Positions 43,919 to 63,819 of a stretch of DNA of 64,000 nt are shown one piece after another (the stretch's first letter is position 1; each line of letters opens with the position of its first letter). The notes beneath the pieces are model-generated. The model had not been told where the DNA came from and made no database searches. It worked only from the letters and a program-made list of their open reading frames with translations. The stretch is from positions 1,178,001-1,242,000 of the forward strand of contig NZ_CP093312.1 in NCBI RefSeq assembly GCF_023213175.1, written 5' to 3'. The DNA is from Sulfurovum sp. XGS-02 (lineage in GTDB: Bacteria; Campylobacterota; Campylobacteria; Campylobacterales; Sulfurovaceae). Both the position numbers and the translations under genes were made by a program.

Positions 43919-44752
43919 TTATTCTGCTTCTTTTTTCAACTTATCGTAAAAATAGTTGGTTGCCTGGACAAAACCGTCAACGCTTCCGCAGTCAAAACGT
44001 TTTCCTTTAAACTTGTAGGCTAAAACCATACCCTTTTTTGCATGATTTAGCAAAGCATCGGTAATTTGTAGTTCCCCATTTTTACCAGGTTCGGTCTCTT
44101 CAATGGTTCTAAAAATATCAGGGGTAAGTATGTATCGTCCAATGATCGCGAGATTCGAAGGAGCATCTTCAAGGTCCGGTTTTTCGACCATATCAGAGAT
44201 CATAAATACATCATCTTGTATCTCTTTTCCATCAATTACACCATATTTGTATGTCTCTTCTTTAGGCACCTCTTGAATGGCCACAACACAACATTTGTAT
44301 TTCTCATAGATCTTGACCAACTGGGCTAATACATTATCCCCTTCCTCATTTACACACAGATCATCTGCCAAGATCACGCCAAAAGGTTCATTTCCGATCA
44401 AAGGTTCACCTTTTAAAATAGCATGGCCCAGTCCCAACATCTCTTTTTGCCTGGTAAACGTAAAGGTACATTTATCCATCATATCGCGTGTACTTTTCAG
44501 TAGATCTTCTTTGGAACTTCCTTTGATTTGATGCTCCAATTCATACGAGATATCAAAATGTTCTACCAAAGCTCTCTTACCGCGACCCGTAATGATCGCC
44601 ATGACATCCATACCGGCATCACTTGCTTCTTCTACCCCATACTGTATCAGTGGTTTGGTCAAGATGGGAAGCATCTCTTTAGGTGTTGCCTTGGTTGCCG
44701 GTAAAAACCGTGTACCATATCCGGCAGCCGGGAATAAACATTTTTTAATCAT
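43919..44752 (-). CDS. galU: UTP-glucose-1-phosphate uridylyltransferase
   Basis: 277 residues. It makes UDP-glucose from glucose-1-phosphate and UTP. Nucleotidyltransferase signature FPAAGYGTRFLPATKATPKEMLPI at the start, then GVEEASDAGMDVMAIITGRGKRALVEHFD and VILADDL (metal Asp). It overlaps the phosphorylase gene by 8 nt and is the last gene of the glucosylglycerate operon, where it would recycle the glucose-1-phosphate released by phosphorolysis into the activated donor. UDP-glucose can also serve other glycan routes. Confidence 0.96.
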   Translation of the reverse strand: MIKKCLFPAAGYGTRFLPATKATPKEMLPILTKPLIQYGVEEASDAGMDVMAIITGRGKRALVEHFDISYELEHQIKGSSKEDLLKSTRDMMDKCTFTFTRQKEMLGLGHAILKGEPLIGNEPFGVILADDLCVNEEGDNVLAQLVKIYEKYKCCVVAIQEVPKEETYKYGVIDGKEIQDDVFMISDMVEKPDLEDAPSNLAIIGRYILTPDIFRTIEETEPGKNGELQITDALLNHAKKGMVLAYKFKGKRFDCGSVDGFVQATNYFYDKLKKEAE

Positions 44753-46487: not shown

Positions 46488-47710
46488 GAGCTATTATCCT
46501 TATTGACAGTCTCTTTAAATCGTTCTGATATCTCTGGACATACAGAACGTATACTGGTCCATGCTGAGAGGGAAGGAACACCGAGAGGATTAGCAAGAAA
46601 ACTTTCACACGCCTCTTTGAGTGCATGATCAAAAGTCTCAACAGCATCTATCTCTTTCTTCCTATCAAAATTCAACGCATTAAATTTAGCCACCGCATCA
46701 TAGCGTCCAATGGCTTTTCGACTCTCATGAAAGAATGAGCTTCGCAGTGTAGTAAGCGACTCTTTGGAAAATGTCACCCCACGCTGCGCCATGACCCTGA
46801 AAATGGTTTGTGCAATATCTATGGCCATCTTTGCCACTCCACCTTCAAGTTCATGCGTAGGAATGTCTCCTGTGAGTTCCTGGTGTTTATGCTCATAACT
46901 CTCCATGATCTCTGTTTGACAAATACGTCGTACAGAGGTTTTATCATAAACTTCACTCAGTGTTGAGACTTCTAAACCCCAAGTAGGAGAAATACGGATC
47001 CCTCGTGCAAGTGTACGTGTAAAAGCAAATTCTCCTGAGAGTGCATACCTGAAACTGTCCATATAGTTTAAATAGTCACTCTCCCCATAGGTATTTTTAA
47101 GAGCCTTTATCAGCGGGGTATAAAAGAGTCTTGTTGCACGTCCATGCAACCTATCTGTAACACGTGAGTAGTAGCCTTTGTTAAATTCAAAATCCAATGC
47201 CGGGTGAATAATCGGGTAAAAAAGTCGTGCAGGAACTTCACGACTGTAATTTACAATGTCACAATCATGCAGGGCAAATGCAAAGGCATTTTTATCTGCA
47301 AGGGCATAGCCCAGCATCGTCCAGACATTTCGGCCCTTTCCTTTAATATTAATACTGCTAAACCCTAGGTCATCAAACTGATTGTAGAGTTTTTGAACGT
47401 TAGGGCCATCATTCCAAAGTACATCTACCCTCACATCAAGATTAGCCATAATAGCTTTAACATTTTCAAATTCTTCTTTCGTTGCCCTGTCTAAACCCAA
47501 AATGATCTTGTAAAGATATTTTACTCCTTTAAGTTCTTTGAGGATCTGTTTCATCGCAGGCGTTTCAAATTCAGAGTAAAGCGCAGGCAGGAGTAGCACC
47601 ATATTGTGTCTTTTTGAGAACTTTTCTAACTCAGTCTCCATCTCTTCAAGCGTTCGATTTGAGAGGTATTGTAGTGTTGTTATCAGTCCGTTTTGAAAAA
47701 AATCTGCCAT
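46481..47710 (-). CDS. gpgS: Glucosyl-3-phosphoglycerate synthase (GT81)
   Basis: 409 residues. GT-A glycosyltransferase of the GpgS type: LLLPALYSEFETPAMKQILKEL, a long helix-loop, then AFALHDCDIVNYSREVPARLFYPI with the metal-binding D-x-D, and GELAFTRTLARGIRISPTWGLEVSTL-type motifs (here GEFAFTR). It transfers glucose from NDP-glucose to 3-phosphoglycerate, the first step of glucosylglycerate synthesis. A mannosyl donor cannot be excluded from motifs alone, but the GH13_18 and GalU neighbours favour glucose. Gene 10 nt after the glycerate kinase stop. Confidence 0.88.
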   Translation of the reverse strand: MADFFQNGLITTLQYLSNRTLEEMETELEKFSKRHNMVLLLPALYSEFETPAMKQILKELKGVKYLYKIILGLDRATKEEFENVKAIMANLDVRVDVLWNDGPNVQKLYNQFDDLGFSSINIKGKGRNVWTMLGYALADKNAFAFALHDCDIVNYSREVPARLFYPIIHPALDFEFNKGYYSRVTDRLHGRATRLFYTPLIKALKNTYGESDYLNYMDSFRYALSGEFAFTRTLARGIRISPTWGLEVSTLSEVYDKTSVRRICQTEIMESYEHKHQELTGDIPTHELEGGVAKMAIDIAQTIFRVMAQRGVTFSKESLTTLRSSFFHESRKAIGRYDAVAKFNALNFDRKKEIDAVETFDHALKEACESFLANPLGVPSLSAWTSIRSVCPEISERFKETVNKDNSSC

Positions 47711-47719
47711 TGCTTTCCT

Positions 47720-48874
47720 TTATTTTTTTAATATGATGATAAAATCCATGACGTTCGTTCCTGTCGCACCTATGGTAAAGTCAGCATCCAACGCTTTGAA
47801 AAACGTGTAACTGTCACTGTTCTTTAAATAGGATTTTGGATCCAAGCCTTTTGTTTTCATTTTTTCATAGATATCTGCTTCTAAAAAGGCGCCTGTTGCA
47901 GGTGAATTTCCATCGATGCCGTCACTTCCTGCGATCAAAATTGAGATCTTGTCCGAGACCAATGCTTTATCCATTAGTCTGAGAGCCAACTCCTGATTGC
48001 GGCCTCCTTTACCGGTACCTTTGACTTCTGTGGTCGTCTCTCCACCAAAAAGCAGGCAAAATGAGTCATATTTCTTATCATACGCTTTTATTTTTTTCAC
48101 GAGATATTTGGCAACTTCTTTCGAAGATCCGCTGAGAGTATTTGTGACTATTATGACCTTATCTACTTTGGGTTTGATATACTTTTTTGCCTCTTTTAAT
48201 GCGATGGTATTGTTTCCTATGATATGATGAGGCATTTTGCCATTCATCATCGGAGCCGAACCGATAGTATTGAGGTCATCACCGATCACATCACTCAATA
48301 CCAGAACCACCCCTTTTGCCTTCGTATAGTCAGCCAATTTGCCGCCTTTTATCTGGGAGATGGATTTTCGTACACTATTGAGTGTTTGGATATCTATACC
48401 CGAACCGAGCAATGCCGAGGATATTTTCTGAAAATTCTCTAAACTGATACCATCTATAGGCTTCTCGATCATGGCTGAAGCTCCACCTGAAAGACAAAAG
48501 ATGAAAAAATCATCTTGACCCATTGTTTGCATCATATCGATCAGTTTCTCCGCCCCTTCAATGCTCTTTTGTGAAACTAGAGGGTGTGTTGAAGTATGGT
48601 GTTCAATAAAACTGCATGAACCTTTTTGATGTGAAATCGCAATCCCTCCTTGGATAAGAGAACCTAAGATCTTTTCTGCAGCCTTTGCCATATTCAATCC
48701 GGCTTTCCCCACGGAGAAGAGGTAGAGTTTGTTGATCTTTTTCAAAGGGTAGGCAGTGTTGCAAACGGTAAGATCTTTTTTATCCAGGGAGATATTGTTG
48801 CGAATGATCGCATCGGCTTTTACCGCTTCAAGGGCCTGATTGTAGATCTCTGTGAGTATTTTTTTATTAGACAT
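47720..48874 (-). CDS. Glycerate 2-kinase (MOFRL/DUF4147 type)
   Basis: 384 residues, shorter than many members. An N-terminal DUF4147 domain (LYLFSVGKAGLNMAKAAEKIL, CLSGGASAMIEKPIDGISL, NSVRKSISQIKGGKLA) is followed by the MOFRL domain (LLFGGETTTEVKGTGKGGRNQELALRL and AGSDGIDGNSPATGAF). Family members phosphorylate glycerate to 2-phosphoglycerate with ATP. Here it would return the glycerate released from glucosylglycerate to glycolysis. It overlaps the gpgP stop by 8 nt and ends 10 nt before gpgS. Confidence 0.92.
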   Translation of the reverse strand: MSNKKILTEIYNQALEAVKADAIIRNNISLDKKDLTVCNTAYPLKKINKLYLFSVGKAGLNMAKAAEKILGSLIQGGIAISHQKGSCSFIEHHTSTHPLVSQKSIEGAEKLIDMMQTMGQDDFFIFCLSGGASAMIEKPIDGISLENFQKISSALLGSGIDIQTLNSVRKSISQIKGGKLADYTKAKGVVLVLSDVIGDDLNTIGSAPMMNGKMPHHIIGNNTIALKEAKKYIKPKVDKVIIVTNTLSGSSKEVAKYLVKKIKAYDKKYDSFCLLFGGETTTEVKGTGKGGRNQELALRLMDKALVSDKISILIAGSDGIDGNSPATGAFLEADIYEKMKTKGLDPKSYLKNSDSYTFFKALDADFTIGATGTNVMDFIIILKK

Positions 48875-49661
48875 ATTTCAATACCATCTCATTCCAGCCT
48901 TTACTCCCTTGGTAGCTTGATTTTTCTATATGAGGTAAACCCGTTTCAAGGTAGCTTCCATCATGTGTTTGAATCAAAATAGGTATATCTACATGCTTTA
49001 GCATTTCAATGTCATTTTGGCTGTCTCCCAATGCCATGGAACGAACCTTATCTTGATACAACACTTCAAAAAGTTCTATGGTCTTGATCACTGCAATCCC
49101 CTTATCTTGGGATTCACCTATTAAATGATAAAACCGTCCGCCTTGCGTGATCTTTAATCCATATGTATGAGCCAACTTTTTCAATGCGTTTAATTTAGTC
49201 GCATCTTTAAGGATAAATGGTTCCGTGAAATCACGCTGTTTTGCAAGGAGAACATCACTCTGGCTCAATTCGGTTAAGTGTATAATTTGCTCATCAGACA
49301 TATCGCTCAAGCCAACCATATCGAATGCTTCTTTATGGGCTCTATAGAACTCCAAAACTTTCGCATAAGATTCACCAAATACCATGACTCTCTTATCATC
49401 ATAATGGCTTAGAAATGACAGATCAAACCCTTGATACCCCTCAGGGATGAAGAGAGCTGCACCATTTTCAACAATAAAAGGTTCTGAGATACCGACTTTT
49501 TCTTGCAGATATTCAACTTCAACTTTCGTTTTACTGGTAGTGAAAATAAGAGGGATCCCTTCTTCTTTGATCTTTTGCAGTGCCTCAAAAGACGCTTCAA
49601 ATGAGTAATCATGGTAATTTAAAAAAGTACCGTCGAGATCGGTAAATATTAAACGTTTCAT
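48867..49661 (-). CDS. HAD-IIB glucosyl/mannosyl-3-phosphoglycerate phosphatase
   Basis: About 264 residues. HAD motifs: IFTDLDGTFLNYHD (nucleophile Asp and acid/base Asp), TTSKTKVEVEYL (Ser/Thr motif II), a conserved Lys and GDSQNDIEML (motif IV). The cap region and FIVENGAALFIP are typical of MpgP-type phosphatases. It would dephosphorylate glucosyl-3-phosphoglycerate made by GpgS to glucosylglycerate. First gene of the five-gene operon. Three in-frame ATGs lie within 12 nt; none has a strong RBS, so the start (49661, 49667 or 49673) is uncertain. TATAGT overlaps the first ATG, favouring a later one. Confidence 0.88.
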   Translation of the reverse strand: MKRLIFTDLDGTFLNYHDYSFEASFEALQKIKEEGIPLIFTTSKTKVEVEYLQEKVGISEPFIVENGAALFIPEGYQGFDLSFLSHYDDKRVMVFGESYAKVLEFYRAHKEAFDMVGLSDMSDEQIIHLTELSQSDVLLAKQRDFTEPFILKDATKLNALKKLAHTYGLKITQGGRFYHLIGESQDKGIAVIKTIELFEVLYQDKVRSMALGDSQNDIEMLKHVDIPILIQTHDGSYLETGLPHIEKSSYQGSKGWNEMVLKYV

Positions 49662-49855
49662 TTTCATACCCATACTATAACATATTAATGAAATATCATT
49701 TATAAATTATTGCATAATATATAAACAATTAAAAATTATTTTCATTATATAACTTTATTTAGAAACCATGCACACTGCTATAGATTGCTATGTTTCTATG
49801 ATAAAGTGTACAGATGTATGCATACTAGCTGCTATTTTCACTTCTCACTATACGA

Positions 49856-51076
49856 TCACAGTTCTTGCAGTTTACTCTTCAAAATAATTTTTCCTGCCTC
49901 TACACCCGGCTGATCATAGGTATTTACATCTATCAGTTCACCCACTAGAGAAGTGAGTAGTTCATAATAGAACATAAGAGAACCGATATTTGATTCTGTC
50001 ACACTTTGAATGGTGAGCGTATCCAAAGGGATATTATTTTGGTCCAACAGTGCTTCGATCACAGAATCACATTGCATATTGATCAGTTTTGAAAAAGGAA
50101 GATTGTTTAAACTGTCAAGCATTTCCAAATGAGGCAGTGTGATATCAGGGATCGTGGTATTATCATGAAAATCTTCGATCTTTATAAAGGTGACTGATTT
50201 ATCCCGGGTACCTTCCATGATCAGTTGTAAAAAAGAGTGTTGGTCTTTAGGACCGATCAGTCCGATAGGTGTAAGCCCTACATGAAAGGCACTGTTACGT
50301 TGGTGTTTTCCCAGACTCTCCCCCCAGAGTTGTACATACCATTGACAGAAGTATTTCAGTGTTTCTGAATAGGCAAATATACAGTTAATACTGTACCGTG
50401 CATGGTTTTCGGCATAATAGACAGCTTTTTCCAGAAGCATATCATAAACATACCCTCTATCAAAGAACCGTTCTTTGATCATTTGTGCACCTGTTAAGAG
50501 ATCTTTGATATCGATCCCGCACAGTGCCAAAGGAACCAATCCTACCGTTGAAAGGACTGAAAACCTACCTCCCACATTATCGGGGAGATAGAGTACAGAA
50601 GCTTCTATCTCTATGGCATATTTTTCAAGCGGAGAATCAGGATCCGTAATAAAGGTATAAAAAGATGGATCTTTTTGTAAAGAATAGATATATTTATAGA
50701 TAGAAAAAGTCTCTACCGTACTACCTGATTTGGAAATCACCAAAAAATGTGTTTTATTGATATCACATTTAGAGAGCAGTTCATTGATATTGATGGGGTC
50801 GGTACTCTCAAAAAAATAGACTTTTCTAGAGAGCTCCTTGACCGGTTTCATGAATTCATAAACTGCTTTGGCCCCTAAAGAACTTCCTCCTATCCCGATC
50901 ACTGCGATGGTTTCTATACTTTCAGGGATCGTACTGCAATACTCAAGTATGGGGCCAATGTCCTGATCCGGCAACGTATAATAGCCTATCGTCTTTTGTT
51001 CTTCTACAATAGCGTCAAATGCTTTTTCTTCTGCTCTTTTACTGATAGAACTAAAATAGAGTTTATTTTTTATCAT
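49856..51076 (-). CDS. pgi: Glucose-6-phosphate isomerase (short form)
   Basis: 406 residues, clearly shorter than the 550-residue E. coli enzyme but typical of Campylobacterota. It interconverts glucose-6-phosphate and fructose-6-phosphate. Signatures: VIGIGGSSLGAKAVYEF, VISKSGSTVETFSIYKY (phosphate-binding), DNVGGRFSVLSTVGLVP and LWGESLGKHQ. It starts one base after the eda stop, with AAAGGAG inside the end of eda. It is the last gene of the zwf operon. The 49677-49855 gap holds only A/T-rich sequence. Confidence 0.96.
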   Translation of the reverse strand: MIKNKLYFSSISKRAEEKAFDAIVEEQKTIGYYTLPDQDIGPILEYCSTIPESIETIAVIGIGGSSLGAKAVYEFMKPVKELSRKVYFFESTDPININELLSKCDINKTHFLVISKSGSTVETFSIYKYIYSLQKDPSFYTFITDPDSPLEKYAIEIEASVLYLPDNVGGRFSVLSTVGLVPLALCGIDIKDLLTGAQMIKERFFDRGYVYDMLLEKAVYYAENHARYSINCIFAYSETLKYFCQWYVQLWGESLGKHQRNSAFHVGLTPIGLIGPKDQHSFLQLIMEGTRDKSVTFIKIEDFHDNTTIPDITLPHLEMLDSLNNLPFSKLINMQCDSVIEALLDQNNIPLDTLTIQSVTESNIGSLMFYYELLTSLVGELIDVNTYDQPGVEAGKIILKSKLQEL

Positions 51077-51077
51077 G

Positions 51078-51710
51078 TTATTTTTCTCCTTTGATGACCT
51101 GTATCGCTTCTCTGCAAAGCTGTGTGATCTGTTTAAAGTTTTTTTCTTTCACTGCCTGCTTGGGGACGATCCAGCTTCCTCCTGCACAGAGTACATTTTC
51201 AAGTGCGAGAAAATCATTGATATTCTCAAGATTCACGCCTCCCGTTGGGCAAAATCTCATACTCGAAAACGGTCCGCTAAATGCCTTAAGTATCTCAACG
51301 CCTCCTGCAAGTGTTGCCGGGAAAAGTTTACAATGTTCAAAACCGTTATTTTTTGCAAGCATCACTTCTGAAGCCGTTGCTACCCCCGGGATCAATGCAA
51401 CATTCAATGCTTTTGAAGTCTGCATCAAATCTTCACTGATACCCGGACTGAAGACAAACTCGGCACCATGGGCCACTGCATTTTCAAACTCTCTGCTATT
51501 GAGTACGGTTCCTGCACCCACATGCATCTGCGGCAGTGCTTTTGAGATAGCCTCTATAGACCCAAGCCCTGCATCCGTACGCAGCGTGATCTCCATGATT
51601 GAGATTCCCCCTTCAAGCAAAGCTTCTGCCAATGGCAGGGCATCTTCAATATGTTCCAATGCGATCACCGGAACGATCGGTGAGATCTGCATCACTTCTT
51701 TGGCTGTCAT
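51078..51710 (-). CDS. eda: KDPG/KHG aldolase
   Basis: 210 residues. It cleaves 2-keto-3-deoxy-6-phosphogluconate to pyruvate and glyceraldehyde-3-phosphate. Seen: IVPVIALEHIEDALPLAEALLEGG, MEITLRT (catalytic Glu), VGAGTVLN, FSPGI, HCKLFPA (Schiff-base Lys) and CPTGGV. Its start overlaps the edd stop by 4 nt (ATGA). Confidence 0.97.
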   Translation of the reverse strand: MTAKEVMQISPIVPVIALEHIEDALPLAEALLEGGISIMEITLRTDAGLGSIEAISKALPQMHVGAGTVLNSREFENAVAHGAEFVFSPGISEDLMQTSKALNVALIPGVATASEVMLAKNNGFEHCKLFPATLAGGVEILKAFSGPFSSMRFCPTGGVNLENINDFLALENVLCAGGSWIVPKQAVKEKNFKQITQLCREAIQVIKGEK

Positions 51711-53536
51711 TCGCGCTCCTTACCTGGAATATCAAAGAGACTGGCACCCTCTTCGGCCATACCGACACTCTGACGCACAGCGACAAAAAGCTCTCTGCCG
51801 AACCCATGAGTATTGGCACTATGATCTGGTCTGACAACCGTACGTGCCTGTAACTCTCTATCGTCAACCAAAAGCATGATCTCTCCTTTTTTCGCATCAA
51901 AACGGATCATATCGCCTGTTTGAACCTTTGCCAACATCCCTCCATCAAGTGCTTCAGGAGAGAAGTGAATGGCAGATGGTACTTTACCCGATGCACCCGA
52001 CATACGTCCATCTGTGATAATAGCCACTTTATACCCCTTGTCCTGAAGTGCTCCAAGCGGCGGCATCAGTCCATGTAACTCCGGCATCCCGTTCGCCTTT
52101 GGCCCCTGATAACGCACAACAGCGATAAAGTCTTTTTCCAGTTCCCCCTGATGAAATGCATCCTGTAAAGCCTCCTGGGATTCAAAGACGATCGCCGGTG
52201 CCTCGATAAAAAACTGTTCAGACTTCAATGCAGAGGTTTTGATGACACTGCGTCCAAGGTTTCCATTAAGAAGTTTCAGTCCCCCCTCTTCACTAAAAGG
52301 TGTTTGTATACTTGAGATCACCTCTTCATTAAGTGAAACCCTTGGACCCGGTTCAAAAGTCAAAGTATCTTTTGTCATACAAGGTTCAGCAATATAGGCA
52401 TCCAATCCTCTACCTACGATCGTCTCCACATCATTATGCACAAGTCCCGCATCAAGCAGTTGTGAGATCACGACACTCATCCCCCCTGCCTCTCTGAAAT
52501 GATTCACATCTGCCTGTCCGTTCGGGTACATTTTACACAGCAGAGGTGTAACCTTGGATATCTCATCAAAATCATCCCAATTAAGTATGATCCCTGCCGC
52601 TCTTGCCATCGCGATCAGGTGGATCGTGTGATTCGTAGAGCCGCCCGTCGCCATCAGACCAACAATGGCATTGACAAAACTCTTTTCATCAATGATCTCT
52701 GCAATAGGTTTGTATCTTCCTTTTAACTCTGTCATCTTAACAACCGTTTTTGCAGCATATGCGGTCAATGCTTCCCGTAAAGGGGTGTTCGTATTGACAA
52801 AAGAACTGTTTGGAAGCTGCAATCCCATCATCTCAAGTAACATCTGGTTGGAGTTTGCCGTACCGTAGAAAGTACAGGTACCACTACTGTGATAGGAAGC
52901 GGATTCTACTTTAAGCAGTGCTTCTTCGCTCACTTTGCCCTGGGCGTAATCCTGACGTACTTTTGCTTTTTGTGCATTGCTGATACCCGAAGGCATAGGA
53001 CCTGCAGGTACAAATACCCCGGGAAGATGGCCAAAGGCCAAAGCACCGATAAATAGTCCCGGAACGATCTTGTCACACACACCAAGATAGAGTGCACCGT
53101 CATACACATTATGCGAAAGTGCTATAGCTGTTCCCATGGCAATATTATCACGACTGAAGAGACTCAACTCCATACCTGGCTGTGACTGTGTCACCCCGTC
53201 ACACATTGCAGGTACACCGCCTGCAACCTGCGCGGTGGCACCCAGATCCATCAATGTACGTTTGATCAAAGGAGGATAGAGTTTATACGGTTCATGTGCC
53301 GAGAGCATATCGTTATAGGCTGTGACGATAGCGATATTGGGACTTTCCGACCCCGAAAGCGATGTTTTTTCACCCACTTCCATCGGTGCCATAGCATGCG
53401 CTAGATTACTGCATCCCAATTTGTTACGGTTGACACCATGTCCTTTGGCTGAAGCAATTCTATCCAGGTAAATGGCTCTGCTCTCTAAAGAGCGTTTGCG
53501 AATTCTCTCTGTTACATTTTGTATAACTTCATTCAT
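51707..53536 (-). CDS. edd: 6-phosphogluconate dehydratase
   Basis: 609 residues. It dehydrates 6-phosphogluconate to KDPG. Family motifs: GGVPAMCDGVTQSQPGMELS, NVYDGALYLGVCDKIVPG, GATGGSTNHTIHL-type LMATGGSTNHTIHLIAM, and DGRMSGASGKVPSAIH. Conserved Cys residues in CDGVT and GVCDKI are the likely Fe-S ligands, so the enzyme should be O2-sensitive. Overlaps pgl and eda by 4 nt on each side. Confidence 0.97.
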   Translation of the reverse strand: MNEVIQNVTERIRKRSLESRAIYLDRIASAKGHGVNRNKLGCSNLAHAMAPMEVGEKTSLSGSESPNIAIVTAYNDMLSAHEPYKLYPPLIKRTLMDLGATAQVAGGVPAMCDGVTQSQPGMELSLFSRDNIAMGTAIALSHNVYDGALYLGVCDKIVPGLFIGALAFGHLPGVFVPAGPMPSGISNAQKAKVRQDYAQGKVSEEALLKVESASYHSSGTCTFYGTANSNQMLLEMMGLQLPNSSFVNTNTPLREALTAYAAKTVVKMTELKGRYKPIAEIIDEKSFVNAIVGLMATGGSTNHTIHLIAMARAAGIILNWDDFDEISKVTPLLCKMYPNGQADVNHFREAGGMSVVISQLLDAGLVHNDVETIVGRGLDAYIAEPCMTKDTLTFEPGPRVSLNEEVISSIQTPFSEEGGLKLLNGNLGRSVIKTSALKSEQFFIEAPAIVFESQEALQDAFHQGELEKDFIAVVRYQGPKANGMPELHGLMPPLGALQDKGYKVAIITDGRMSGASGKVPSAIHFSPEALDGGMLAKVQTGDMIRFDAKKGEIMLLVDDRELQARTVVRPDHSANTHGFGRELFVAVRQSVGMAEEGASLFDIPGKERE

Positions 53537-54228
53537 CGGTAAAATACCTCTATCTCTTTAATCTCTTGGTTCAATACACTGCGTATAGGCATCGCATAGA
53601 TATCTTCTCCTCCGATCGCTTCTTCATAGACAGCGATCTTCTCTTTGCCTTCAAAATGAAGATAGATATGTTTGGCACTCAAGATCGCATGAAGGGTCAA
53701 ACTCATCCGAGTATAAGGTGCAGTATTGGGTTCGATCGAGATGCAAAAATCTGGATTTTTCAGATCAAAAGCCTCTTCAAGTTTGATATTCTCCGGGAAA
53801 AGAGATGCTGTATGTGCATCAGTACCCATACCCAGGATGAGTACATCAAAAGGATAAAGCAACTCTTTCATCTTTCTTGAACACTCCTTTTGCGCCGTAT
53901 AGATATCTCTCTCTTCGCTATACATCCCTATAAAATGCGCATCGGCTGCCTCTTCCTGAAGCAGATATTTCTTGACAAAATGTTCATTGCTCTCTTCTTT
54001 GGAAACATCGATCCATCGTTCATCACAAAGACCGACCGATACTTTATCCCAGTCCAATGCTGCTTTTCTGAGTTTTTTAAACAGTGGTTTTGGTGTACTT
54101 CCCCCTGAAACGATCAAAGAAGCGTTTCCTTTTTCCTCAATCGCTTTTTGAAGATTTGCCACTATACTTTGACTTAATGACTCTATCAGTGCTTCTTGTT
54201 CACTAAAAGTATGTACGGTTCTACTCAT
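53533..54228 (-). CDS. pgl: 6-phosphogluconolactonase
   Basis: 231 residues. It hydrolyses 6-phosphogluconolactone. Seen: LIVSGGSTPKPLFKKLRK, VGLCDERWIDVSKEESNEHF, ILGMGTDAHTASLFPEN (the His-Thr-Ala-Ser-Leu-Phe-Pro motif) and APYTRMSLTL. Two adjacent ATGs (54231, 54228) follow AGGAG at 5 and 8 nt; the second is used. It overlaps the end of zwf by about 8 nt. Confidence 0.95.
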   Translation of the reverse strand: MSRTVHTFSEQEALIESLSQSIVANLQKAIEEKGNASLIVSGGSTPKPLFKKLRKAALDWDKVSVGLCDERWIDVSKEESNEHFVKKYLLQEEAADAHFIGMYSEERDIYTAQKECSRKMKELLYPFDVLILGMGTDAHTASLFPENIKLEEAFDLKNPDFCISIEPNTAPYTRMSLTLHAILSAKHIYLHFEGKEKIAVYEEAIGGEDIYAMPIRSVLNQEIKEIEVFYR

Positions 54229-55684
54229 CATGCCAGCTCCTACCGCTTCTTGCAATCAGCTGTACAGCAGCGCTCGGTCCGTCCGTTCCTGCGTTGTAAC
54301 TTTTCATAGGAACCATATCTTCTGCCCAGCCATCCAGGATCACATCTGCCCATTTCCATGCAGCTTCTACTTCATCCAAACGCATAAAGAGCGTCGGGTT
54401 CGCACGGATCACATCTAAAAGCAAACGCTCATAGGCATCCGGTTTATGGGCTACTTTTAAAGGGGTATTAAGCTCGAGTTCCACAGGTTTTAACATCATC
54501 TGTTCGCTCAGACCCGGTACTTTATTCATCAACTGTAGATGGATACTCTCTTTAGGCTGCAGTGCTATTACAAGTTTATTTTCTGAAATACATTTGCCCT
54601 GGTTGGCAAAAATGGAGTGCGGTACCCCTTTAAAATGTATCACGATCTCAGAATTCCGACGTCTCATACGTTTACCGCTTCTCAGATAAAAAGGTACACC
54701 GTTCCAACGCCAGTTATCAATATCGACACGTAGTGCCGCAAAGGTTTCAGTGGTACTCTCTTCCATACCCTCACCCTCAAGATAACCCGGTACAGGCATA
54801 CCCTCACTGGACCCTTTGGCATATTGAGCACGTACGGTTTTTTGTTCGATATCCGCAGGTGACATCGTACGAAGCGAACGGAGTACTTTCACCTTCTCAT
54901 CACGTACACTGTCAGCATCAAGTGAGCAAGGAGGCTCCATTGCTACCAGACAAAGCAGCTGCATCAAGTGATTCTGCACCATGTCACGCATCGCACCATA
55001 ATCATCATAATATCCCCAGCGTCCTTCAACACCGACACTCTCGGCGACAGTGATCTGTACATGATCAATATGGTTTGAATTCCACAACGGCATGAAAAAT
55101 CGATTTGAAAAACGAAGCGCCATGATATTTTGTACGGTATCTTTACCCAGATAGTGATCGATACGGTAGATCTGCGACTCTTCAAAATACTTCAGTACTT
55201 CAACATTGATCACACGAGAAGATTCAAGATCTCTTCCTATGGGTTTTTCAAGTACGACCCTGCTTTGCGGTGTGACAAGTTCAAGCTCGCTCATGGACCT
55301 GCAGATCGTACCGAAAAAGTCAGGAGCGGTCGAAAGGTAGTTCACTCTCTCTCTTTCAGGGTACTCATCCAATAACTCTTTAAGACCCCGATAGCTCTCT
55401 AAAATATCGAACTCGATAGTGACCACATGCAGTTGAGCCCTGAAATACTCGAATTTTTCCTCATCAAACGCATCATCTGACAAAAACTCTTTCAGTTTGG
55501 ACTTCACCAGATCGCAATGTTCATCATTGCTCATAGGGACCCTGGTCGCTGTGATGATACGACTTTGCTCATCCAGGTAGCCACTGTTGCTCAAATGGTA
55601 CAATGCAGGCATCAACTTCCTGAATGCCAGGTCTCCATGCCCACCAAAAATTGTAATATCGCATAAACTTTCCATTGCATCCAT
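54221..55684 (-). CDS. zwf: Glucose-6-phosphate 1-dehydrogenase
   Basis: 487 residues. It oxidises glucose-6-phosphate to the lactone with NAD(P)+. Motifs: IFGGHGDLAFRKLMPALYHL (nucleotide site; His replaces the usual Ser/Ala of GASGDLA), EKPIGRDLESS, RIDHYLGKDTVQNI (active site) and GVPFYLRSGKRM. The ATG at 55684 is used because GGAAGG then lies 8 nt upstream; a GTG at 55693 would be too close. First gene of zwf-pgl-edd-eda-pgi. Confidence 0.97.
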   Translation of the reverse strand: MDAMESLCDITIFGGHGDLAFRKLMPALYHLSNSGYLDEQSRIITATRVPMSNDEHCDLVKSKLKEFLSDDAFDEEKFEYFRAQLHVVTIEFDILESYRGLKELLDEYPERERVNYLSTAPDFFGTICRSMSELELVTPQSRVVLEKPIGRDLESSRVINVEVLKYFEESQIYRIDHYLGKDTVQNIMALRFSNRFFMPLWNSNHIDHVQITVAESVGVEGRWGYYDDYGAMRDMVQNHLMQLLCLVAMEPPCSLDADSVRDEKVKVLRSLRTMSPADIEQKTVRAQYAKGSSEGMPVPGYLEGEGMEESTTETFAALRVDIDNWRWNGVPFYLRSGKRMRRRNSEIVIHFKGVPHSIFANQGKCISENKLVIALQPKESIHLQLMNKVPGLSEQMMLKPVELELNTPLKVAHKPDAYERLLLDVIRANPTLFMRLDEVEAAWKWADVILDGWAEDMVPMKSYNAGTDGPSAAVQLIARSGRSWHDE

Positions 55685-55757
55685 TTGATCCACCTTCCTT
55701 TCACGCGCTTCGTAAAATCATTGTTCTATCAAATTCCAGTCATTCAGCCATCTTTTT

Positions 55758-55863: not shown

Positions 55864-56847
55864 TTAAAGTCTGTCACGTGCATAATAGGCAGCCCCCAGC
55901 AGTGCGGTTTCGGGATTTAAAGAGATCTTCACCTGCATCGCCTGTAACATTTCATTAAAACGGCCTTTGCTTAAGAATCCGTTCATAAAATGGTTGTTAG
56001 AGAGTACAGAGAGGATCTTAGGGGCTATACCGCCACCGATATATACCCCGCCAAGCGACATACTTTTTAAAGCAAGATTCCCTGCTTCAGCACCATAGAT
56101 CTCCGCAAAAAGTCTCAATGCCTCCATACAAAGCGGATTATATTCTTTCAATGCACATTCGCTCACCATGGCACTTTTGTCTTTGCCTTCAGGTATGTTC
56201 AACATCGATGTAGGCTGTGCAGCAAAATCAATTTCCGCTAAAAATTCATACAGTGTATAGATACCTGGACCGGAAAGTATCCGTTCAAAACTTACATGTC
56301 CCGGATAGCGGTTACGCATCCATTTCAGCAGTGTATCCTGCTGCAGTGTCAAAGGTGCAAAATCACAATGCCCTCCTTCTGAACCGATAGGATAATAGAC
56401 GTTCCCGTCATAATAGAGCATCGCTTCTCCCAGACCCGTTCCCGCAGCGATCACAGCGCGATTTCCATCCACTTTCCGACCTTTGGGATTAAGGTCTACA
56501 AATTCATCATCAGGCACATAGAGCATACCATAAGCTGTAGCTTCAAGATCATTCAGCAGACGTACTTTTTCAATGCCTAAATGTGCCTGTAGCTCAGCTG
56601 TTGCAATATCCCAGGGTAAGTTTGTCGTACGGCAACGCCCGTCAATCACTGGACCTGCGATACCAAAACATGCTGCATCGATAGAGGGCAGTGAACTCTT
56701 TTGCATAAAGAGCGTGATCACCTCATTGAGACTGCTGAATTCTCTACTGGGGAACTGATGCTGTGCGACCACACTCAATACATTATCTCTAAGTTCAAAG
56801 ATTGCAAGATTCGTTTTTGTGCCACCAATATCTCCTGCCAATATCAT
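55864..56847 (-). CDS. glk: Glucokinase (Glk family)
   Basis: 327 residues. It phosphorylates glucose with ATP. Seen: LAGDIGGTKTNLAIF (phosphate 1), FGIAGPVIDGRCRTTNLPWDI, LLNDLEATAYGM (catalytic Asp), IAAGTGLGEAML (phosphate 2) and GSEGGHCDFAP. It starts 9 nt after the stop of the phosphorylase-kinase-like gene and is probably cotranscribed with it. Its role could be to recapture glucose released by glycogen hydrolysis. Confidence 0.95.
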   Translation of the reverse strand: MILAGDIGGTKTNLAIFELRDNVLSVVAQHQFPSREFSSLNEVITLFMQKSSLPSIDAACFGIAGPVIDGRCRTTNLPWDIATAELQAHLGIEKVRLLNDLEATAYGMLYVPDDEFVDLNPKGRKVDGNRAVIAAGTGLGEAMLYYDGNVYYPIGSEGGHCDFAPLTLQQDTLLKWMRNRYPGHVSFERILSGPGIYTLYEFLAEIDFAAQPTSMLNIPEGKDKSAMVSECALKEYNPLCMEALRLFAEIYGAEAGNLALKSMSLGGVYIGGGIAPKILSVLSNNHFMNGFLSKGRFNEMLQAMQVKISLNPETALLGAAYYARDRL

Positions 56848-56856: not shown

Positions 56857-59800
56857 TTATACTGTAAGATCATGCAAAGAATCTTGCGGTGACAGCAAGA
56901 ACATAAAGGCTTCCAAAAATGCCTTGTCTGTCTCTACAGGTGATCGTTGATAAAATGCTTTCCAAGCTTCTGAACGCTGCTCATTGTAATGCTTTGAAGC
57001 ACTGTTCTTCTCCCATGATATACGTACCGCATGACCTATGAGTACATCCATAATGAGGTCATCTTCAAGATGCAAATCAGGGTTTTCCCTAAAGAGTCTT
57101 GCCAGGCTCTCGATCAGTTCGATATTCAACTGACGGTAATCAGGGGCATCGATGCTCTGTAAAAGTGCATCGATCTTCAAAGCAAAGCTCTGTTCACCTG
57201 CAGTTGATTCCAAAGTGAGTTCCGAACCGATCCTGTTTTGTACATTGTATTTATCTCCAATGACCAAGCCGCTGCACTGTCGCAGCAGATACCATATATC
57301 TTTATAGAAAACAGGAGAAAGCGGACCTACCATACCCCTTTGCTGTCTCCAATGCTGCCAGTCAGTGACTTCTCTGAACTCCGAAACTCTCGGACCTATC
57401 TTGATCGATTCAAAAGAAGGTCTAACTCTTGCATGTAGGTTTTCCTGAACAAGGAAGAGTGAAACCTCTCTTTTAAATGTTTTCAGTACTCTGTACAGAC
57501 GCTCATAGATCGTGTGTGGTGCCAGACTGATCAACTTTTCATAAGCATCAGCCATATGCAGGTTCTCCTCCCTGCTTATCTGTCCTACAAGTAACTGAAT
57601 AAAATACCAGGTTCTGATCGTCAGCATATTTTCAAACAGTTCGGGTTCATTTCTGATCATATATCCAAGATGCAAAATGATCTCCTGTGTCAGGACACTC
57701 TCTGCTGTGTTATTACCGCAGAACTCTATGATCGTTTTCACGATATCTATACTTTCATGCGGTTTTGAGAACGTCGCTTTTCCACTATATGCCCGTCCTA
57801 CTGCCAGGCGCTTTTGACGTATCACGATATCAAGAAGTACATCTTCGATACGATCATCATATTTTTCTGTCAGATCAGCGATACGCCGTACCAGATTCCA
57901 CTCATGACACACCGTTGCAGATTCATAAAGATCCTGAGCGACCTGCGACAATGTGATACTGCCTTCCTCCCTATGAAATTCAAAATCTGCACCCTTTCGT
58001 CGCCATAGTTCTTCAAGGACACAGGTCTTATATAATCGGTTTTTCTCACCCAACAGTATCTCTATCAGTAGAGCATCATCCTGAGCTCCAAGATACTCTA
58101 TCTCCTCTGGACTCAAGCGTATCGCATCGGTCTCATTTTCCTTGGAACAGAGGCGTAATCGATCATCCTTTGAGACAATGTCTGCATCCTGCAAGGTAAA
58201 ACCGTGAATGTGATCTATACGTTCCATACACGCTTGCCCCAGTAACCTCTTCAATGGCCCTGTCTGTATAGCAACAGTACCGCTCTGCTCTTTTTGTATA
58301 TTCTCCAACAGTTCAACCAGTGCCTCACGTTCTCTAGCTGAGAACATCGATTCACGAACGAAAAAAGGTATAACAGGCTGACCTTTTACATCCCACTGCA
58401 CAGCAAGGAATCTTAAGGATGCCCGAAAATGTTCTACCAACAATATATTATCCGCCGAAAAATAAAATCCGTGCGGGTTGAAATAATAAGGGAGAAAGAT
58501 TATCTCTTCGCCTTCATAGACGTGTACCCTTGCCGTTGTCATAGTTCTTGCGACCATCAACTCCCTACCGCTTAAAGAGAGTTTTTTATTTTGACCCAGG
58601 AACGTATGGAGCATAGAGAGCTGATCGGCATGGATGATCCGTACGGGTTTGATCTCCTCTATCGTTTCGCTTTCAAAACCAAGTGCTGCCAATTTTTCTT
58701 TCACCGATCTATTTTCTGCGATCACCGGCACCAAAGGTTTTACACTGAAACGGTGTCCGATACGCTTATGGCGTTTTAGAGGATCTATATCTTCCGGGTC
58801 CAGAAGACCGTCAAGCATCATATCGGAGAGCATATAGAGACTTTGGGCCCATACCAGAGGTATATTTTCATTGGCAACACGCATCTGACTTCCAGGATCC
58901 TCTTTTTCTGCATCGATACTTTCTTTAGGAACGATATAGAGTTCAGGCAAGAGTTTTTTCCCCTCCTGTTCGACAAAAAGCGGTTGCAGTTTATGCCTCC
59001 AGTGCTCGACCTCTTCATTCTCACCACGTATCAATGCATCAAGGAGCAGATAGGTGAAAAACAGGGGCCATTCCGATTCAATATGTTCAAATTCACGTAA
59101 CTCCGAAGGTTCGTAGTGTAAGCGACTTGCATCCTCGATACTGCTTTGATGGCCATCGAGTAAAAAACGTTTACATCCGTAATTTCCTGCAAGCTTTTTG
59201 ATGATCTTATCACGTGTACGTTTCACCAATTCTATATCTTCGACCGCATAGGCAGGATATCCTATGATACTCAGCAGTGCGGCATCCGTCTCTTTGGAAT
59301 TGGATTCTCTAGGCAGCAGTCCCTGCAGTGTGAAACGAGAACGGGCGATATCGCTGGGGATCACATGGATTACAGCCTCATGGTTTGGTATATCAGCAAA
59401 AAGGTTAAAACCGTCCAAGGCTTCAAGTGCTGCTTTTGCCATACCTACGGAACTGCCATTGACCTCAGTATTTCCGTGATTGATCTTATTTCCGCGCTCC
59501 CAGATACCATAATCAGGAGTACAATAGGTATGGCTGATATAGTGCACCATATTTTGTACAAAATCAACTTCATCCATCGTGTAGACTATATGTAGTCCCG
59601 AAGCTGTCATTTGCGCGACCATCAATAAAAAAAGAGAGCTTGCATCAAGCTGTAAATGCCCCCATTCGTCATCTCCGACCACGGCCAAGCCTGTTTTTGT
59701 ACCGTACTTCGCATGCAGTGCATCTATAGGGTTGTGTGTTTTTTTGAAGACTTCGATCCTGTCTGACTGTCTCATCATGGCCGTGAGCAGACCCCGCATC

Positions 59801-60057
59801 AATTTCACCACACTTTGGCTTAAAAGATAGGTGCGATGATGCTCAGGATCGAATTTTCTATAGGCAAGTGCAAGGCCCCATACACTCAAAATGCTGTAGA
59901 CATTGTCTCGTACCCAGGCATCGGTATAATCCCCATGGGCATTGACCGCTGTACTTGCAGGCAATAAGCCGGTGATAGGATCCTGGCGTGATAGAATGAT
60001 CTGATCTACAAGATCAAAATGCTTTTTAAGAGAAGACTCAAGTGACTCTACATGCAT
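56857..60057 (-). CDS. GH15-like protein resembling phosphorylase kinase alpha/beta subunits
   Basis: 1066 residues. Residues about 1-430 are a GH15-like (alpha/alpha)6 domain whose blocks closely match animal phosphorylase b kinase regulatory subunits as I recall them: DYTDAWVRDNVYSILSVWGL (43-62), QSVVKLMRGLL, DALHAKYGTKT, GDDEWGHLQLDASS, AQMTASGLHI, SVGMAKAALEALDGFNLF and CKRFLLDGHQSS. The homology seems to continue past the glucoamylase-like part, and the total length is near that of the human beta subunit (about 1090). Other reading: an uncharacterised glucoamylase-family hydrolase. No protein-kinase gene lies nearby. It starts after AAAGGTAAAAC and is upstream of glk. Confidence 0.85.
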   Translation of the reverse strand: MHVESLESSLKKHFDLVDQIILSRQDPITGLLPASTAVNAHGDYTDAWVRDNVYSILSVWGLALAYRKFDPEHHRTYLLSQSVVKLMRGLLTAMMRQSDRIEVFKKTHNPIDALHAKYGTKTGLAVVGDDEWGHLQLDASSLFLLMVAQMTASGLHIVYTMDEVDFVQNMVHYISHTYCTPDYGIWERGNKINHGNTEVNGSSVGMAKAALEALDGFNLFADIPNHEAVIHVIPSDIARSRFTLQGLLPRESNSKETDAALLSIIGYPAYAVEDIELVKRTRDKIIKKLAGNYGCKRFLLDGHQSSIEDASRLHYEPSELREFEHIESEWPLFFTYLLLDALIRGENEEVEHWRHKLQPLFVEQEGKKLLPELYIVPKESIDAEKEDPGSQMRVANENIPLVWAQSLYMLSDMMLDGLLDPEDIDPLKRHKRIGHRFSVKPLVPVIAENRSVKEKLAALGFESETIEEIKPVRIIHADQLSMLHTFLGQNKKLSLSGRELMVARTMTTARVHVYEGEEIIFLPYYFNPHGFYFSADNILLVEHFRASLRFLAVQWDVKGQPVIPFFVRESMFSAREREALVELLENIQKEQSGTVAIQTGPLKRLLGQACMERIDHIHGFTLQDADIVSKDDRLRLCSKENETDAIRLSPEEIEYLGAQDDALLIEILLGEKNRLYKTCVLEELWRRKGADFEFHREEGSITLSQVAQDLYESATVCHEWNLVRRIADLTEKYDDRIEDVLLDIVIRQKRLAVGRAYSGKATFSKPHESIDIVKTIIEFCGNNTAESVLTQEIILHLGYMIRNEPELFENMLTIRTWYFIQLLVGQISREENLHMADAYEKLISLAPHTIYERLYRVLKTFKREVSLFLVQENLHARVRPSFESIKIGPRVSEFREVTDWQHWRQQRGMVGPLSPVFYKDIWYLLRQCSGLVIGDKYNVQNRIGSELTLESTAGEQSFALKIDALLQSIDAPDYRQLNIELIESLARLFRENPDLHLEDDLIMDVLIGHAVRISWEKNSASKHYNEQRSEAWKAFYQRSPVETDKAFLEAFMFLLSPQDSLHDLTV

Positions 60058-60237
60058 GTTTTACCTTTGAAGTGTAAATTCTACCTACATAGTATATAGA
60101 TCCATTATAATCAAATAATCATAGGATGTATAGAGTATATTGCGTCAATTTTAATCAATAGTACTATAGCGTCTGTAGTTCAACAGATGTTATACTGTCA
60201 TAAATGCAATAACAATAACATCTAAAAAAGGTTACTC

Positions 60238-61872
60238 ATGAGTCTTCATCCAAATGCCGGCCAACTCGCACCAAAGTCTATACTGATAAACATCCCGAAG
60301 TTGATCAGTGAGTATTATACGCAAACACCTGATGTCCATAATGGAGCACATCGTATCAGTTTCGGAACTTCCGGGCACCGTGGTTCTTCATTGCGTAAAA
60401 ACTTTAACGAGATGCATATTCTTGCTGTCACACAAGCGGTCTGTGACTACCGTATAAAAGCAGGTATTGAAGGAAAACTCTTTATGGGTATGGATACCCA
60501 TGCTCTCTCTTATCCGGCACAACTCACTGCCATTGAAGTCTTGGCAGCCAACGGTGTCGACCTCTACATTGCCAAAGAGTTTGGCTACACACCGACACCT
60601 GTCATATCCCATGCTATTTTGACACACAATGCAAAAGGCGGAGCGCTCTGTGACGGGATCGTGATCACACCCTCACATAACCCGCCTACAGATGGAGGAT
60701 TTAAATACAACCCTCCCCATGGCGGACCGGCAGATACCGATGTCACGGACTGGATCGAAGCCAGAGCCAATGAAATTCTGAAAAATGATCTGCAGGATGT
60801 CAAGAAATTACCCCTTGAAGAGGCGTTACATGCAGAGAATGTCACCCAATATGACTATGTCACCCCTTATGTAGAGGATCTTGAAAATGTGATAGATATG
60901 GATGCCATTGCTTCATCGGGCATTCTCATCGGTGCAGATGCCATGGGTGGCTCGGGTATGGCATACTATGCTGCGATCAAAGCACGATACGGACTCAACA
61001 TGGAAGTATTTAACGATACATTGGATTCTACCTTCTCTTTTATGCACTGTGACAAGGATGGGAAGATCCGTATGGATTGTTCTTCCCCTTATGCGATGGC
61101 AGGACTGGTCGCTCTCAAAGAAAAGTATGATATTGCCTTTGGAAACGATACAGATTTTGACCGTCACGGTATTGTTACCCAAAGTGTCGGCCTGATGAAC
61201 CCCAACCACTACCTCAGTGTCGCTATCAACTATCTGGCACAAAACCGACCAGAGTGGAAAAGTGATCTGGGTATAGGAAAAACGCTGGTAAGCAGCTCTA
61301 TGATCGACCGTGTTGCCAATGACCTGCAAAAAAAAGTGATCGAAGTACCCGTCGGATTCAAATGGTTCGTTGACGGTCTGATCAACGGCTCCATCTTCTT
61401 CGGCGGAGAAGAGAGTGCCGGTGCAAGCTTTTTACGTAAAGACGGTTCGGTGTGGAGTACCGACAAGGACGGCATCATCATGACTCTTCTGGCTGCTGAA
61501 ATACTGGCAGTGACAGGAAAAGATCCCGGTGTACATTATCAAGAGTTGACCAAAAAATTCGGGGCGCCTATCTATGCCCGTATTGATGCACCTGCGGACG
61601 CGCAGCAGAGAAGTATCCTTAAAAAACTCTCTCCGGCTGACGTCAAGGAAAATGTGCTTTCCGGCGAGCCTATCGAAGCTATCTTGACCAATGCCTCTGG
61701 TAATGGCGCTGCCATAGGTGGATTGAAAGTCGTAGCAAAGAACGGATGGTTTGCACTCCGTCCATCAGGAACGGAACCGATCTATAAGATCTATGCAGAG
61801 AGTTTCATCGATGAAGCACACCTCAAACAGATACAAGAAGAAGCGCAGGCAATGGTCAGCAAACTCTTTTAA
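60238..61872 (+). CDS. pgm: Phosphoglucomutase (alpha-D-glucose)
   Basis: 544 residues, the E. coli Pgm type. It interconverts glucose-1-phosphate and glucose-6-phosphate, the hub joining glycogen, UDP-glucose and the Entner-Doudoroff pathway here. Motifs: [39 protein letters not shown] (phosphoserine loop), [11 protein letters not shown] (metal loop), GGEESAGAS (sugar-binding) and [15 protein letters not shown] (phosphate-binding). Divergent from the phosphorylase-kinase-like gene across 180 bp that should hold both promoters. Convergent with glgB. Confidence 0.97.
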
Positions 61873-61896: not shown

Positions 61897-63819
61897 TCAT
61901 AATACTCTTTTCAGATAGATCACTCCCAAAGGCGGTAGTGTCAGGGTGACGGAGTATTCGCGTCCGTGCATCGGCTCTTTGAGCGCTTGAAGCGATAATG
62001 GATTGCCGATATTCCACCCTTCATACTCACTACACTGAGAGTTAAAGAGCTCGACATACTCACCATCATAGGGCACACCGATCCTATAGTTCTCCCATGT
62101 CTCATCTGCAAAGTTACATGCGACATAGACCGTCTCATCAGGAAGATCACTTTTACGCATAAAACTGATGCAGTTATGCTGATAGTCACCGTCATCGATC
62201 CATTCAAAACCGATATGCTTTTCATCATGCTGGTATAAAGCACGCTCATTTCTATAGAGCAGATTCAGATCACTGAGCATCTTTTGCAGGTTGGCATGGT
62301 AGGGATCTTCAAGAAGATGCCAATCAATGCTCTCCTCAAAATTCCATTCACTGTACTGAGCGATATCTCCTCCCATAAAAAGAAGTTTTTTTCCCGGATG
62401 TGCCATCATATAGGCATACATGGCACGTAGATTAGCAAACTTCTGATTGGTGTCACCGGGCATCTTGTTAATCAGGGAACCTTTCATATGTACCACTTCA
62501 TCATGGCTCAAAGGCAGCATAAAATGCTCATCAAACGCATACCATAGGCTGAACGTGAGCTGATGGTGATGATGCTGACGGTGGATAGGATCAAAGCTCA
62601 TGTACTTGAGGGTATCATGCATCCAACCCATATTCCATTTAAATCCAAATCCCAGTCCCCCGATACTCGTAGGCCGTGTGACCATAGGCCATGCCGTGGA
62701 CTCTTCAGCGATCATCATGATATCAGAGAATTCACCATAGAGACTCTCATTGAGTTTACGCAGGAATGCCACCGCTTCAAGGTTTTCATTTCCCCCGTTG
62801 ACATTGGGTGTCCACTCCCCCTCTTTTCTGGCATAGTTCAGATAGAGCATGGAAGCCACCGCATCCACACGTATCCCGTCAATGTGGTATTTGTCGAGCC
62901 AGAACATCGCAGAGGAGATAAGAAATGATTTGACCTCATTACGTCCATAGTTGAAGATATAACTTCCCCATTCAGGGTGAAAACCCTTTTGCGGGTCCTC
63001 ATGTTCATAGAGTGCCGTACCGTCAAAGTTGACAAGCCCGTGCATATCCACGGCAAAATGGGAAGGCACCCAGTCCATAATGACGCCAAACCCGTTCTGA
63101 TGCAGCACATCGATAAGATACATCAGATCCTGCGGTTCACCAAACCGTGCCGTAGCAGAAAAATACCCCGTCACCTGATACCCCCATGAACCAAAATAGG
63201 GATACTCAGTCAAAGGCATGAACTCCACATGGGTATAATGCATCTGTTTGAGATAGGCCAGAAGTTCTACGGCCAATTCTCTGTAAGTCAGGTAGCGGTT
63301 CTCTTCTTCTACTTTCCGTTTCCATGAACCAAGGTGCATTTCATACACACTGACCGGGCTGTCATGTGCATTGCATTTATGGCGTGCTTTCATCCACGCT
63401 TCATCTTGCCACTCAAACCCTTCAACACTCCAGATACGGGAGGCTGACTTGGAAGGTTTCTCTGAGAAAAAGGCAAAAGGATCGCTCTTGTCATGGACAA
63501 TATGATGAAACCTTGAGACGATATGGTACTTATATGTCAACCCCTGCTCCACACCTTCGATAAATCCTTCCCAGATACCAGAGTCATCTTCCCGTAGTTT
63601 AAGGGGGTGTCTGTCGGCTGCATAGTCATTAAAGTCACCACGTACACTCACACTCTGTGCATTGGGTGCCCACACAGCAAAGTGCACACCATCCACGCCT
63701 TCAATCTGCATGGTATGTGCACCGAACTTTTCATAGAGTTTCGTATGGTTTCCCTCTTTGAAGAGGTAGATATCAAGATCACTCAATGTTGATACATTGT
63801 ACTGCATGTCATGTGTCAT
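61897..63819 (-). CDS. glgB: 1,4-alpha-glucan branching enzyme
   Basis: 640 residues. An N-terminal CBM48 (GVHFAVWAPNAQSVSVRGDFNDY, about 40-60) and a GH13 barrel: DWVPSHFAVD, GIRVDAVASMLYLNY (nucleophile Asp), IMIAEESTAWP (acid/base Glu) and LPLSHDEVVHMKGSL. C-terminal all-beta domain to the end. It introduces alpha-1,6 branches in glycogen. Its ATG overlaps the glgA stop by 4 nt (ATGA), so glgA and glgB are coupled. Confidence 0.97.
   Translation of the reverse strand: MTHDMQYNVSTLSDLDIYLFKEGNHTKLYEKFGAHTMQIEGVDGVHFAVWAPNAQSVSVRGDFNDYAADRHPLKLREDDSGIWEGFIEGVEQGLTYKYHIVSRFHHIVHDKSDPFAFFSEKPSKSASRIWSVEGFEWQDEAWMKARHKCNAHDSPVSVYEMHLGSWKRKVEEENRYLTYRELAVELLAYLKQMHYTHVEFMPLTEYPYFGSWGYQVTGYFSATARFGEPQDLMYLIDVLHQNGFGVIMDWVPSHFAVDMHGLVNFDGTALYEHEDPQKGFHPEWGSYIFNYGRNEVKSFLISSAMFWLDKYHIDGIRVDAVASMLYLNYARKEGEWTPNVNGGNENLEAVAFLRKLNESLYGEFSDIMMIAEESTAWPMVTRPTSIGGLGFGFKWNMGWMHDTLKYMSFDPIHRQHHHHQLTFSLWYAFDEHFMLPLSHDEVVHMKGSLINKMPGDTNQKFANLRAMYAYMMAHPGKKLLFMGGDIAQYSEWNFEESIDWHLLEDPYHANLQKMLSDLNLLYRNERALYQHDEKHIGFEWIDDGDYQHNCISFMRKSDLPDETVYVACNFADETWENYRIGVPYDGEYVELFNSQCSEYEGWNIGNPLSLQALKEPMHGREYSVTLTLPPLGVIYLKRVL

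Follow-up and report, generated by a model that had tools for sequence, protein, structure and literature searches.

A phosphorylase kinase alpha/beta-like protein with conserved glucoamylase residues is encoded beside glucokinase in Sulfurovum and other Campylobacterota

The alpha and beta subunits of phosphorylase kinase (PhK) contain glucoamylase-like domains (Pallen 2003, as cited in PMC10978961), and these domains are a puzzle, since the site of the alpha subunit, in which Glu185 and Glu371 have been named as the catalytic pair, looks intact and yet no activity has been detected (PMC10978961). Our searches of the open-access literature turned up no study of bacterial proteins of the PhK alpha/beta type, nor any description of such a protein coupled to glucokinase or of a phosphorylase-free genome. 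A bacterial member of the family was already detectable, because the cyanobacterium Synechococcus elongatus, used here as a control genome, scores above the Pfam cut-off for KPBB_C, the family of the PhK C-terminal domains. Here we describe such a protein from Sulfurovum sp. XGS-02, encoded within a 64,000-nucleotide stretch of contig NZ_CP093312.1 (positions 1,178,001 to 1,242,000; hereafter the window). The gene lies at 56857..60057 on the minus strand and encodes 1066 amino acids from an ATG start (residue n starts at position 60057-3(n-1)). What is new is a stand-alone, catalytically intact-looking and glucokinase-coupled form of the known PhK alpha/beta family. Judging from its sequence and genomic setting, we propose, with a probability of about 60%, that the protein acts as a stand-alone intracellular exo-glucosidase of glycoside hydrolase family 15 (GH15) on glycogen or dextrins, and not as a kinase regulator.

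The likeness of this open reading frame (ORF) to human PhK alpha and beta extends over its full length and is far beyond chance. When all chains of the Protein Data Bank (PDB) were searched with phmmer, the two PhK subunits were the sole matches at E up to 1 (alpha, E 1.9e-194; beta, E 7e-160), with aligned stretches spanning residues 4-1041. With 22 bacterial homologues combined into a profile, human PhK alpha (4e-269) and beta (6e-216) were again the only hits, with no ordinary GH15 enzyme among them. Two Pfam families scored well above their cut-offs, Glyco_hydro_15 at residues 17-816 (E 2.8e-77, 260.9 bits against a cut-off of 22) and KPBB_C at residues 829-1058 (56884..57573, minus strand; E 3e-78, 262.7 bits against a cut-off of 27). 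The latter stretch, also recognised by sequence and structure matches, represents the D4/D5 region of PhK, and the C-terminal 238 residues alone have human beta (3.7e-10) and then alpha (2.4e-7) as their best matches. With PhK alpha (PHKA1; PDB 8jfk, 8z5r) the protein shares homology across domains D1 to D5, both catalytic glutamates and a DAWVRDN motif; with PhK beta (PHKB) it shares full-length homology and a similar size (1066 versus 1093 amino acids). The first-pass annotation, made from the letters of the window alone, had judged the protein closer to PhK than to ordinary glucoamylases and similar in length to PhK beta, and both judgements hold, the likeness reaching well beyond the first 430 residues that form the glucoamylase-like domain 1 (approximate boundary; 58768..60057, minus strand), an (alpha/alpha)6 domain supported by Pfam, by its invariant columns and by a structural match to GH15 glycosidases.

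Phylogeny and predicted structure agree with this placement. In a tree of the bacterial PhK-like proteins of Campylobacterota, human alpha and beta, and five ordinary GH15 proteins (from Paenibacillus, Natrinema, Rhizobium, Halobacterium and the Campylobacterota genome G040), a 100/100 branch splits the bacterial PhK-like and human PhK proteins from ordinary GH15. When an AlphaFold2 model built from 22 sequences was searched with Foldseek, the top matches were PhK alpha and beta, along the full length (best E 1.4e-52). With a second structure aligner, PhK alpha scored Z 32.4 for 851 residues (model range 4-1056) and the D5 fragment of alpha in 8xyb scored Z 15.8 at residues 897-1058, while GH15-like glycosidases reached Z 14-18 over domain 1, the best ordinary GH15 standing at about 18. 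Glucoamylases, glucodextranases, dextran dextrinase and the glycosidases 5z3a-e of family GH15 have the same (alpha/alpha)6 catalytic fold and acid/base glutamate pair, but they are only ~10-16% identical to the window protein, sit on a distant tree branch and lack the D2-D5/KPBB_C region. An ordinary bacterial GH15 glucoamylase with an overstated resemblance to PhK would agree with the Glyco_hydro_15 match and with the occurrence of an ordinary GH15 in the phylum (G040); this identity is rejected on the strength of the KPBB_C domain, the PDB profile search, the tree and the structure search, and we give it next to no credence.

The catalytic and sugar-binding residues tested in domain 1 are retained in all 24 bacterial PhK-like proteins compared. 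Glu187 (59497..59499, minus strand), the predicted general acid within a WERG motif, corresponds to human alpha Glu185, and Glu372 (58942..58944, minus strand), the predicted catalytic base within LLPELY, to human alpha Glu371. Neither glutamate varies among the 24 sequences, and the same is true of Trp48, Arg50 and Asp51 of the equally conserved motif D46-A-W-V-R-D51 (59905..59922, minus strand), which includes the sugar-binding Arg50/Asp51 of GH15. Alignment with ordinary GH15 by hhalign sets Glu187 on the WEE motif and Glu372 on the LLxEQ (LLAEQ) motif at E 1.9e-4 and a probability of only 48%, a placement that is supportive rather than decisive. Human beta, which is non-catalytic, has lost several of these residues, with Lys408 at the position of the base and K-A-K-I-Q-D, in which Gln replaces the sugar-binding Arg, in contrast to the D-A-W-V-R-D of the bacterial protein. 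Invariant positions make up 44% of domain 1 and 14, 7, 17 and 17% of the following parts (domain boundaries being approximate), which is the pattern of a domain with chemistry under selection. According to the alignment of homologues, the domain 3 region is the least conserved (residues 621-740, approximate boundary; 57838..58197, minus strand). Nearly all of it, corresponding to residues ~632-711 of the window protein, is missing from two homologues of 986 and 984 amino acids (L012 7989-10949 and L014 7998-10952), and it is therefore dispensable.

The second distinctive feature is the link to glucokinase. The glk gene (55864..56847, minus strand; TIGR00749, 1.1e-76) starts 9 bases downstream of the PhK-like gene, and its Shine-Dalgarno sequence AAGGAG overlaps TAA, the stop codon of the PhK-like gene. 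We compared 24 loci, including the window, from Sulfurovum, Sulfuricurvum, Sulfurospirillum and other Campylobacterota genomes of several families, and found glk to be the next same-strand gene after the PhK-like gene in all but one (L046). The two genes usually overlap or lie within ~30 bases of each other, the spacing rising to ~125 bases in L039 and L050; neighbours other than glk vary among the loci. A promoter and terminator scan of the PhK-like region gave no signal above the shuffled background. Because the catalytic residues are invariant and the gene is coupled to glucokinase, we favour an enzymatic form of the PhK scaffold, which was one of two roles proposed in the first-pass annotation; the other, regulation of glycogen breakdown via phosphorylase, is unsupported here for reasons given below.

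The remaining neighbourhood bears out the glycogen and Entner-Doudoroff setting recognised at first reading. Downstream of glk on the minus strand lie zwf (glucose-6-phosphate dehydrogenase, 54221..55693), identified by translation and conserved beside the PhK-like gene and glk in many loci; pgl (6-phosphogluconolactonase, 53533..54255) and edd (phosphogluconate dehydratase, 51707..53536), identified by translation and conserved order; eda (2-keto-3-deoxy-6-phosphogluconate aldolase, 51078..51710; TIGR01182); and pgi (glucose-6-phosphate isomerase, 49856..51076; NF003016). On the other side are pgm (phosphoglucomutase, 60238..61872, plus strand; TIGR01132, 1.7e-266) and glgB (glycogen branching enzyme, 61897..63819, minus strand), the latter assigned by family model. 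Past the window edge (L082) the cluster continues with two glgA genes, a galT-like gene and two GH57 genes, the first close to the solved 4-alpha-glucanotransferase 1k1w (5e-149) and the second to the solved GH57 structures 9jlq/9jlr, named as amylopullulanase in Foldseek titles (3.6e-97).

From these observations we infer hydrolytic activity, its substrate and the role of domains 2 to 5. The GH57 enzymes of the cluster would debranch and rearrange glycogen, supplying linear dextrins, and domain 1 of the single-subunit PhK-like enzyme would cleave glucose off glycogen or these dextrins at their non-reducing ends. The translationally coupled Glk would phosphorylate the freed glucose, and the Entner-Doudoroff enzymes Zwf, Pgl, Edd and Eda would consume the resulting glucose-6-phosphate. 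In the window genome the PhK-like enzyme would take the place of glycogen phosphorylase, and in most relatives it would work beside a short alpha-glucan phosphorylase. In eukaryotes domains 2 to 5 are a scaffold for the kinase; here they probably have a part in oligomerisation, in allostery or in the binding of glycogen.

The distribution of the gene was surveyed in 397 Campylobacterota genomes representing 68 genera, with genome tests uncorrected for shared ancestry. A KPBB_C gene is present in 14 genomes from seven genera, and all 14 belong to the 74 of 397 genomes with glgA above cut-off (Fisher p 2e-11); phosphorylase was found in 75 genomes. The window genome (G000) is a single contig, 99.8% complete, and searches with PF00343 and a TIGR02094 protein query detected no glycogen phosphorylase anywhere in it. 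As a positive control, the same TIGR02094 query recovered phosphorylase copies from 7 of the 10 genomes searched. The closely related Sulfurovum sp. AR (L007, assumed to be G027) likewise has no phosphorylase. Among the 74 glycogen makers just two are without the enzyme, namely the window genome and G040 (p 0.04), and G040 carries the sole other GH15 above cut-off in the sample, the ordinary 642-residue enzyme included in the tree. In the sister genome G003, a 553-residue alpha-glucan phosphorylase (TIGR02094; L047 11865-13526) occupies precisely the interval that separates pgm from the PhK-like gene, where the window has only 180 bases (60058-60237). This suggests, as the simplest account, a recent loss of phosphorylase in the window lineage with retention of the PhK-like gene. 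That the PhK-like gene occurs mainly where phosphorylase is missing was rejected as a general rule, as 13 of the 14 positive genomes have both. We also rejected the idea that the protein is the only possible glycogen degrader of its genome, given the two GH57 genes just past the window. In favour of the exo-glucosidase reading, GH13 matches in this genome are limited to glgB and a sucrose-phosphorylase-like gene. The wider proposition, that bacteria keep an enzymatic PhK scaffold in which a catalytic alpha/beta-type glucoamylase feeds a co-translated glucokinase and is able to replace phosphorylase outright, we put forward tentatively, at a little short of even odds.

Several observations weigh against an exo-glucosidase role. 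The two GH57 enzymes could degrade glycogen without the PhK-like protein, and 4-alpha-glucanotransferases can themselves free some glucose. The phosphorylase-free evidence comes from two closely related genomes and G040, while the 13 positive genomes with phosphorylase, which sometimes have its gene directly upstream (L047, L038), are as compatible with a regulator as with a partner enzyme. At the active site, the residue after the first catalytic Glu is Arg, where several ordinary GH15 enzymes have a second Glu, and the AlphaFold2 model is of modest confidence, with a predicted local distance difference test score of 66 and a predicted template modelling score of 0.52, too weak for active-site geometry. 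Finally, an intact glutamate pair is no proof of activity, because human PhK alpha keeps the same pair and showed no detectable activity on maltose, isomaltose or glycogen (PMC10978961).

The chief rival explanation is a non-catalytic glucan sensor or scaffold. Domain 1 would bind glycogen ends or malto-oligosaccharides, and the protein would exert allosteric control over a partner; the co-encoded glucokinase is the most plausible candidate, joined in relatives by the alpha-glucan phosphorylase. The human alpha site is intact-looking but inactive, and acarbose activates PhK (PMC10978961); the retention of the full D1-D5 architecture, the constant adjacency of glk and the upstream phosphorylase genes of L047 and L038 would all suit such a sensor. 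It accounts less readily for the complete conservation of catalytic and sugar-binding residues that non-catalytic human beta has in part lost, or for the near absence of domain 3 in two homologues, and the features of a kinase regulator are likewise not conserved. The alpha kinase-contact residues Lys588 and Tyr593 (from PMC10978961) are Asn586 and Gln591 in the window protein, in columns that vary among the bacteria. None of the 24 bacterial proteins ends in the C-terminal CaaX farnesylation motif, a difference from both PhK alpha and PhK beta, and human alpha 618-695 and 972-1042 have no counterpart in the bacterial profile alignment. As the window genome is without phosphorylase, the protein cannot regulate that enzyme there, and we rejected phosphorylase regulation in this genome on these grounds together with the unconserved contact residues and the missing CaaX tail. 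We regard a glucan sensor as unlikely overall, and continue to prefer the exo-glucosidase. Nucleotide control of the protein is possible on sequence grounds, since part of the adenosine diphosphate pocket of PhK beta is kept: its Tyr213 is conserved in 24 of 24 bacterial proteins, Arg274 in 22, Arg211 in 15 and Arg214 in none, the window protein having Tyr178, Arg239 and, where most relatives have Arg, His176.

A further alternative is that bacteria took up a PhK gene from eukaryotes and that its product still regulates a protein kinase, an unlinked one of the Hanks type. Domain 1 of the window protein is closer to human alpha (55% identity; 43.5% to human beta) than human beta is (47%), and four Hanks-type Pkinase matches occur elsewhere in the genome, none of them near the window (G000:C1 376381, 1528633, 1400964 and 811899). 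Against an acquired regulator, human alpha and beta form a clade of their own (100/99) apart from the bacterial proteins, the gene is spread over several Campylobacterota genera and a cyanobacterium, and neither the residues that contact the gamma subunit (K588/Y593) nor the CaaX tail nor, in the window genome, any phosphorylase is present. The first-pass annotation saw no kinase gamma subunit nearby, and a crude motif test found no Hanks-type kinase among 408 neighbouring ORFs of the examined loci. We therefore consider acquisition of a functioning kinase regulator very improbable. The tree fixes neither its root nor which of the two, the bacterial protein or eukaryotic PhK, would be ancestral, because human sequences alone represent eukaryotic PhK and the outgroup branches are extremely long.

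The protein could also be an active GH15 enzyme acting on another glucose-yielding substrate, such as isomaltose-type dextrins, trehalose or glucosylglycerate, in place of glycogen. Trehalases are among the members of GH15, and the protein gives a weak match to an archaeal trehalase model (E 3.8e-6, far short of the cut-off of that model); release of glucose from any such substrate would explain the glucokinase coupling equally well. The window also carries, at 43919-49673 on the minus strand, a row of genes for galU, a sucrose-phosphorylase-like GH13, a GpgS-like glucosyl-3-phosphoglycerate synthase, a glycerate 2-kinase and an MPGP-type phosphatase, likely an operon for making and recycling glucosylglycerate beside the Entner-Doudoroff block. 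However, the PhK-like gene occurs only in glgA-positive genomes of the sample, and among the other loci mpgp of this operon is found near it in L007 and L047 alone, which are the closest relatives. We judge a substrate other than glycogen improbable, somewhat more so than the glucan sensor.

If the wider proposition above is correct, the regulatory PhK scaffold would derive from a glycogen-hydrolysing enzyme. Activity of the bacterial protein would define a phosphorylase-free, hydrolytic route from glycogen to the Entner-Doudoroff pathway in Campylobacterota. With its conserved catalytic residues, no kinase nearby and a near-constant glucokinase neighbour, the bacterial relative offers a small, testable system for the original role of the glucoamylase-like domains of PhK.

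Beyond cellular genomes, tblastn found no PhK-like relative in IMG/VR, and a plasmid collection yielded two weak Escherichia coli matches only, NZ_CP134663.1 (L072; ORF of 550 amino acids) and NZ_OL790696.1, with GH15 similarity at ~24% identity. Both records are ~4.8-4.9 megabases long and, while filed as plasmids, look like whole chromosomes. Returning to the Sulfurovum locus, the last gene of the glycogen cluster (L082 11884-14385; 71883-74384 in window numbering) encodes an 833-residue protein in which a nucleotidyltransferase with hexapeptide repeats is fused to a half that resembles phosphomannomutase/phosphoglucomutase.

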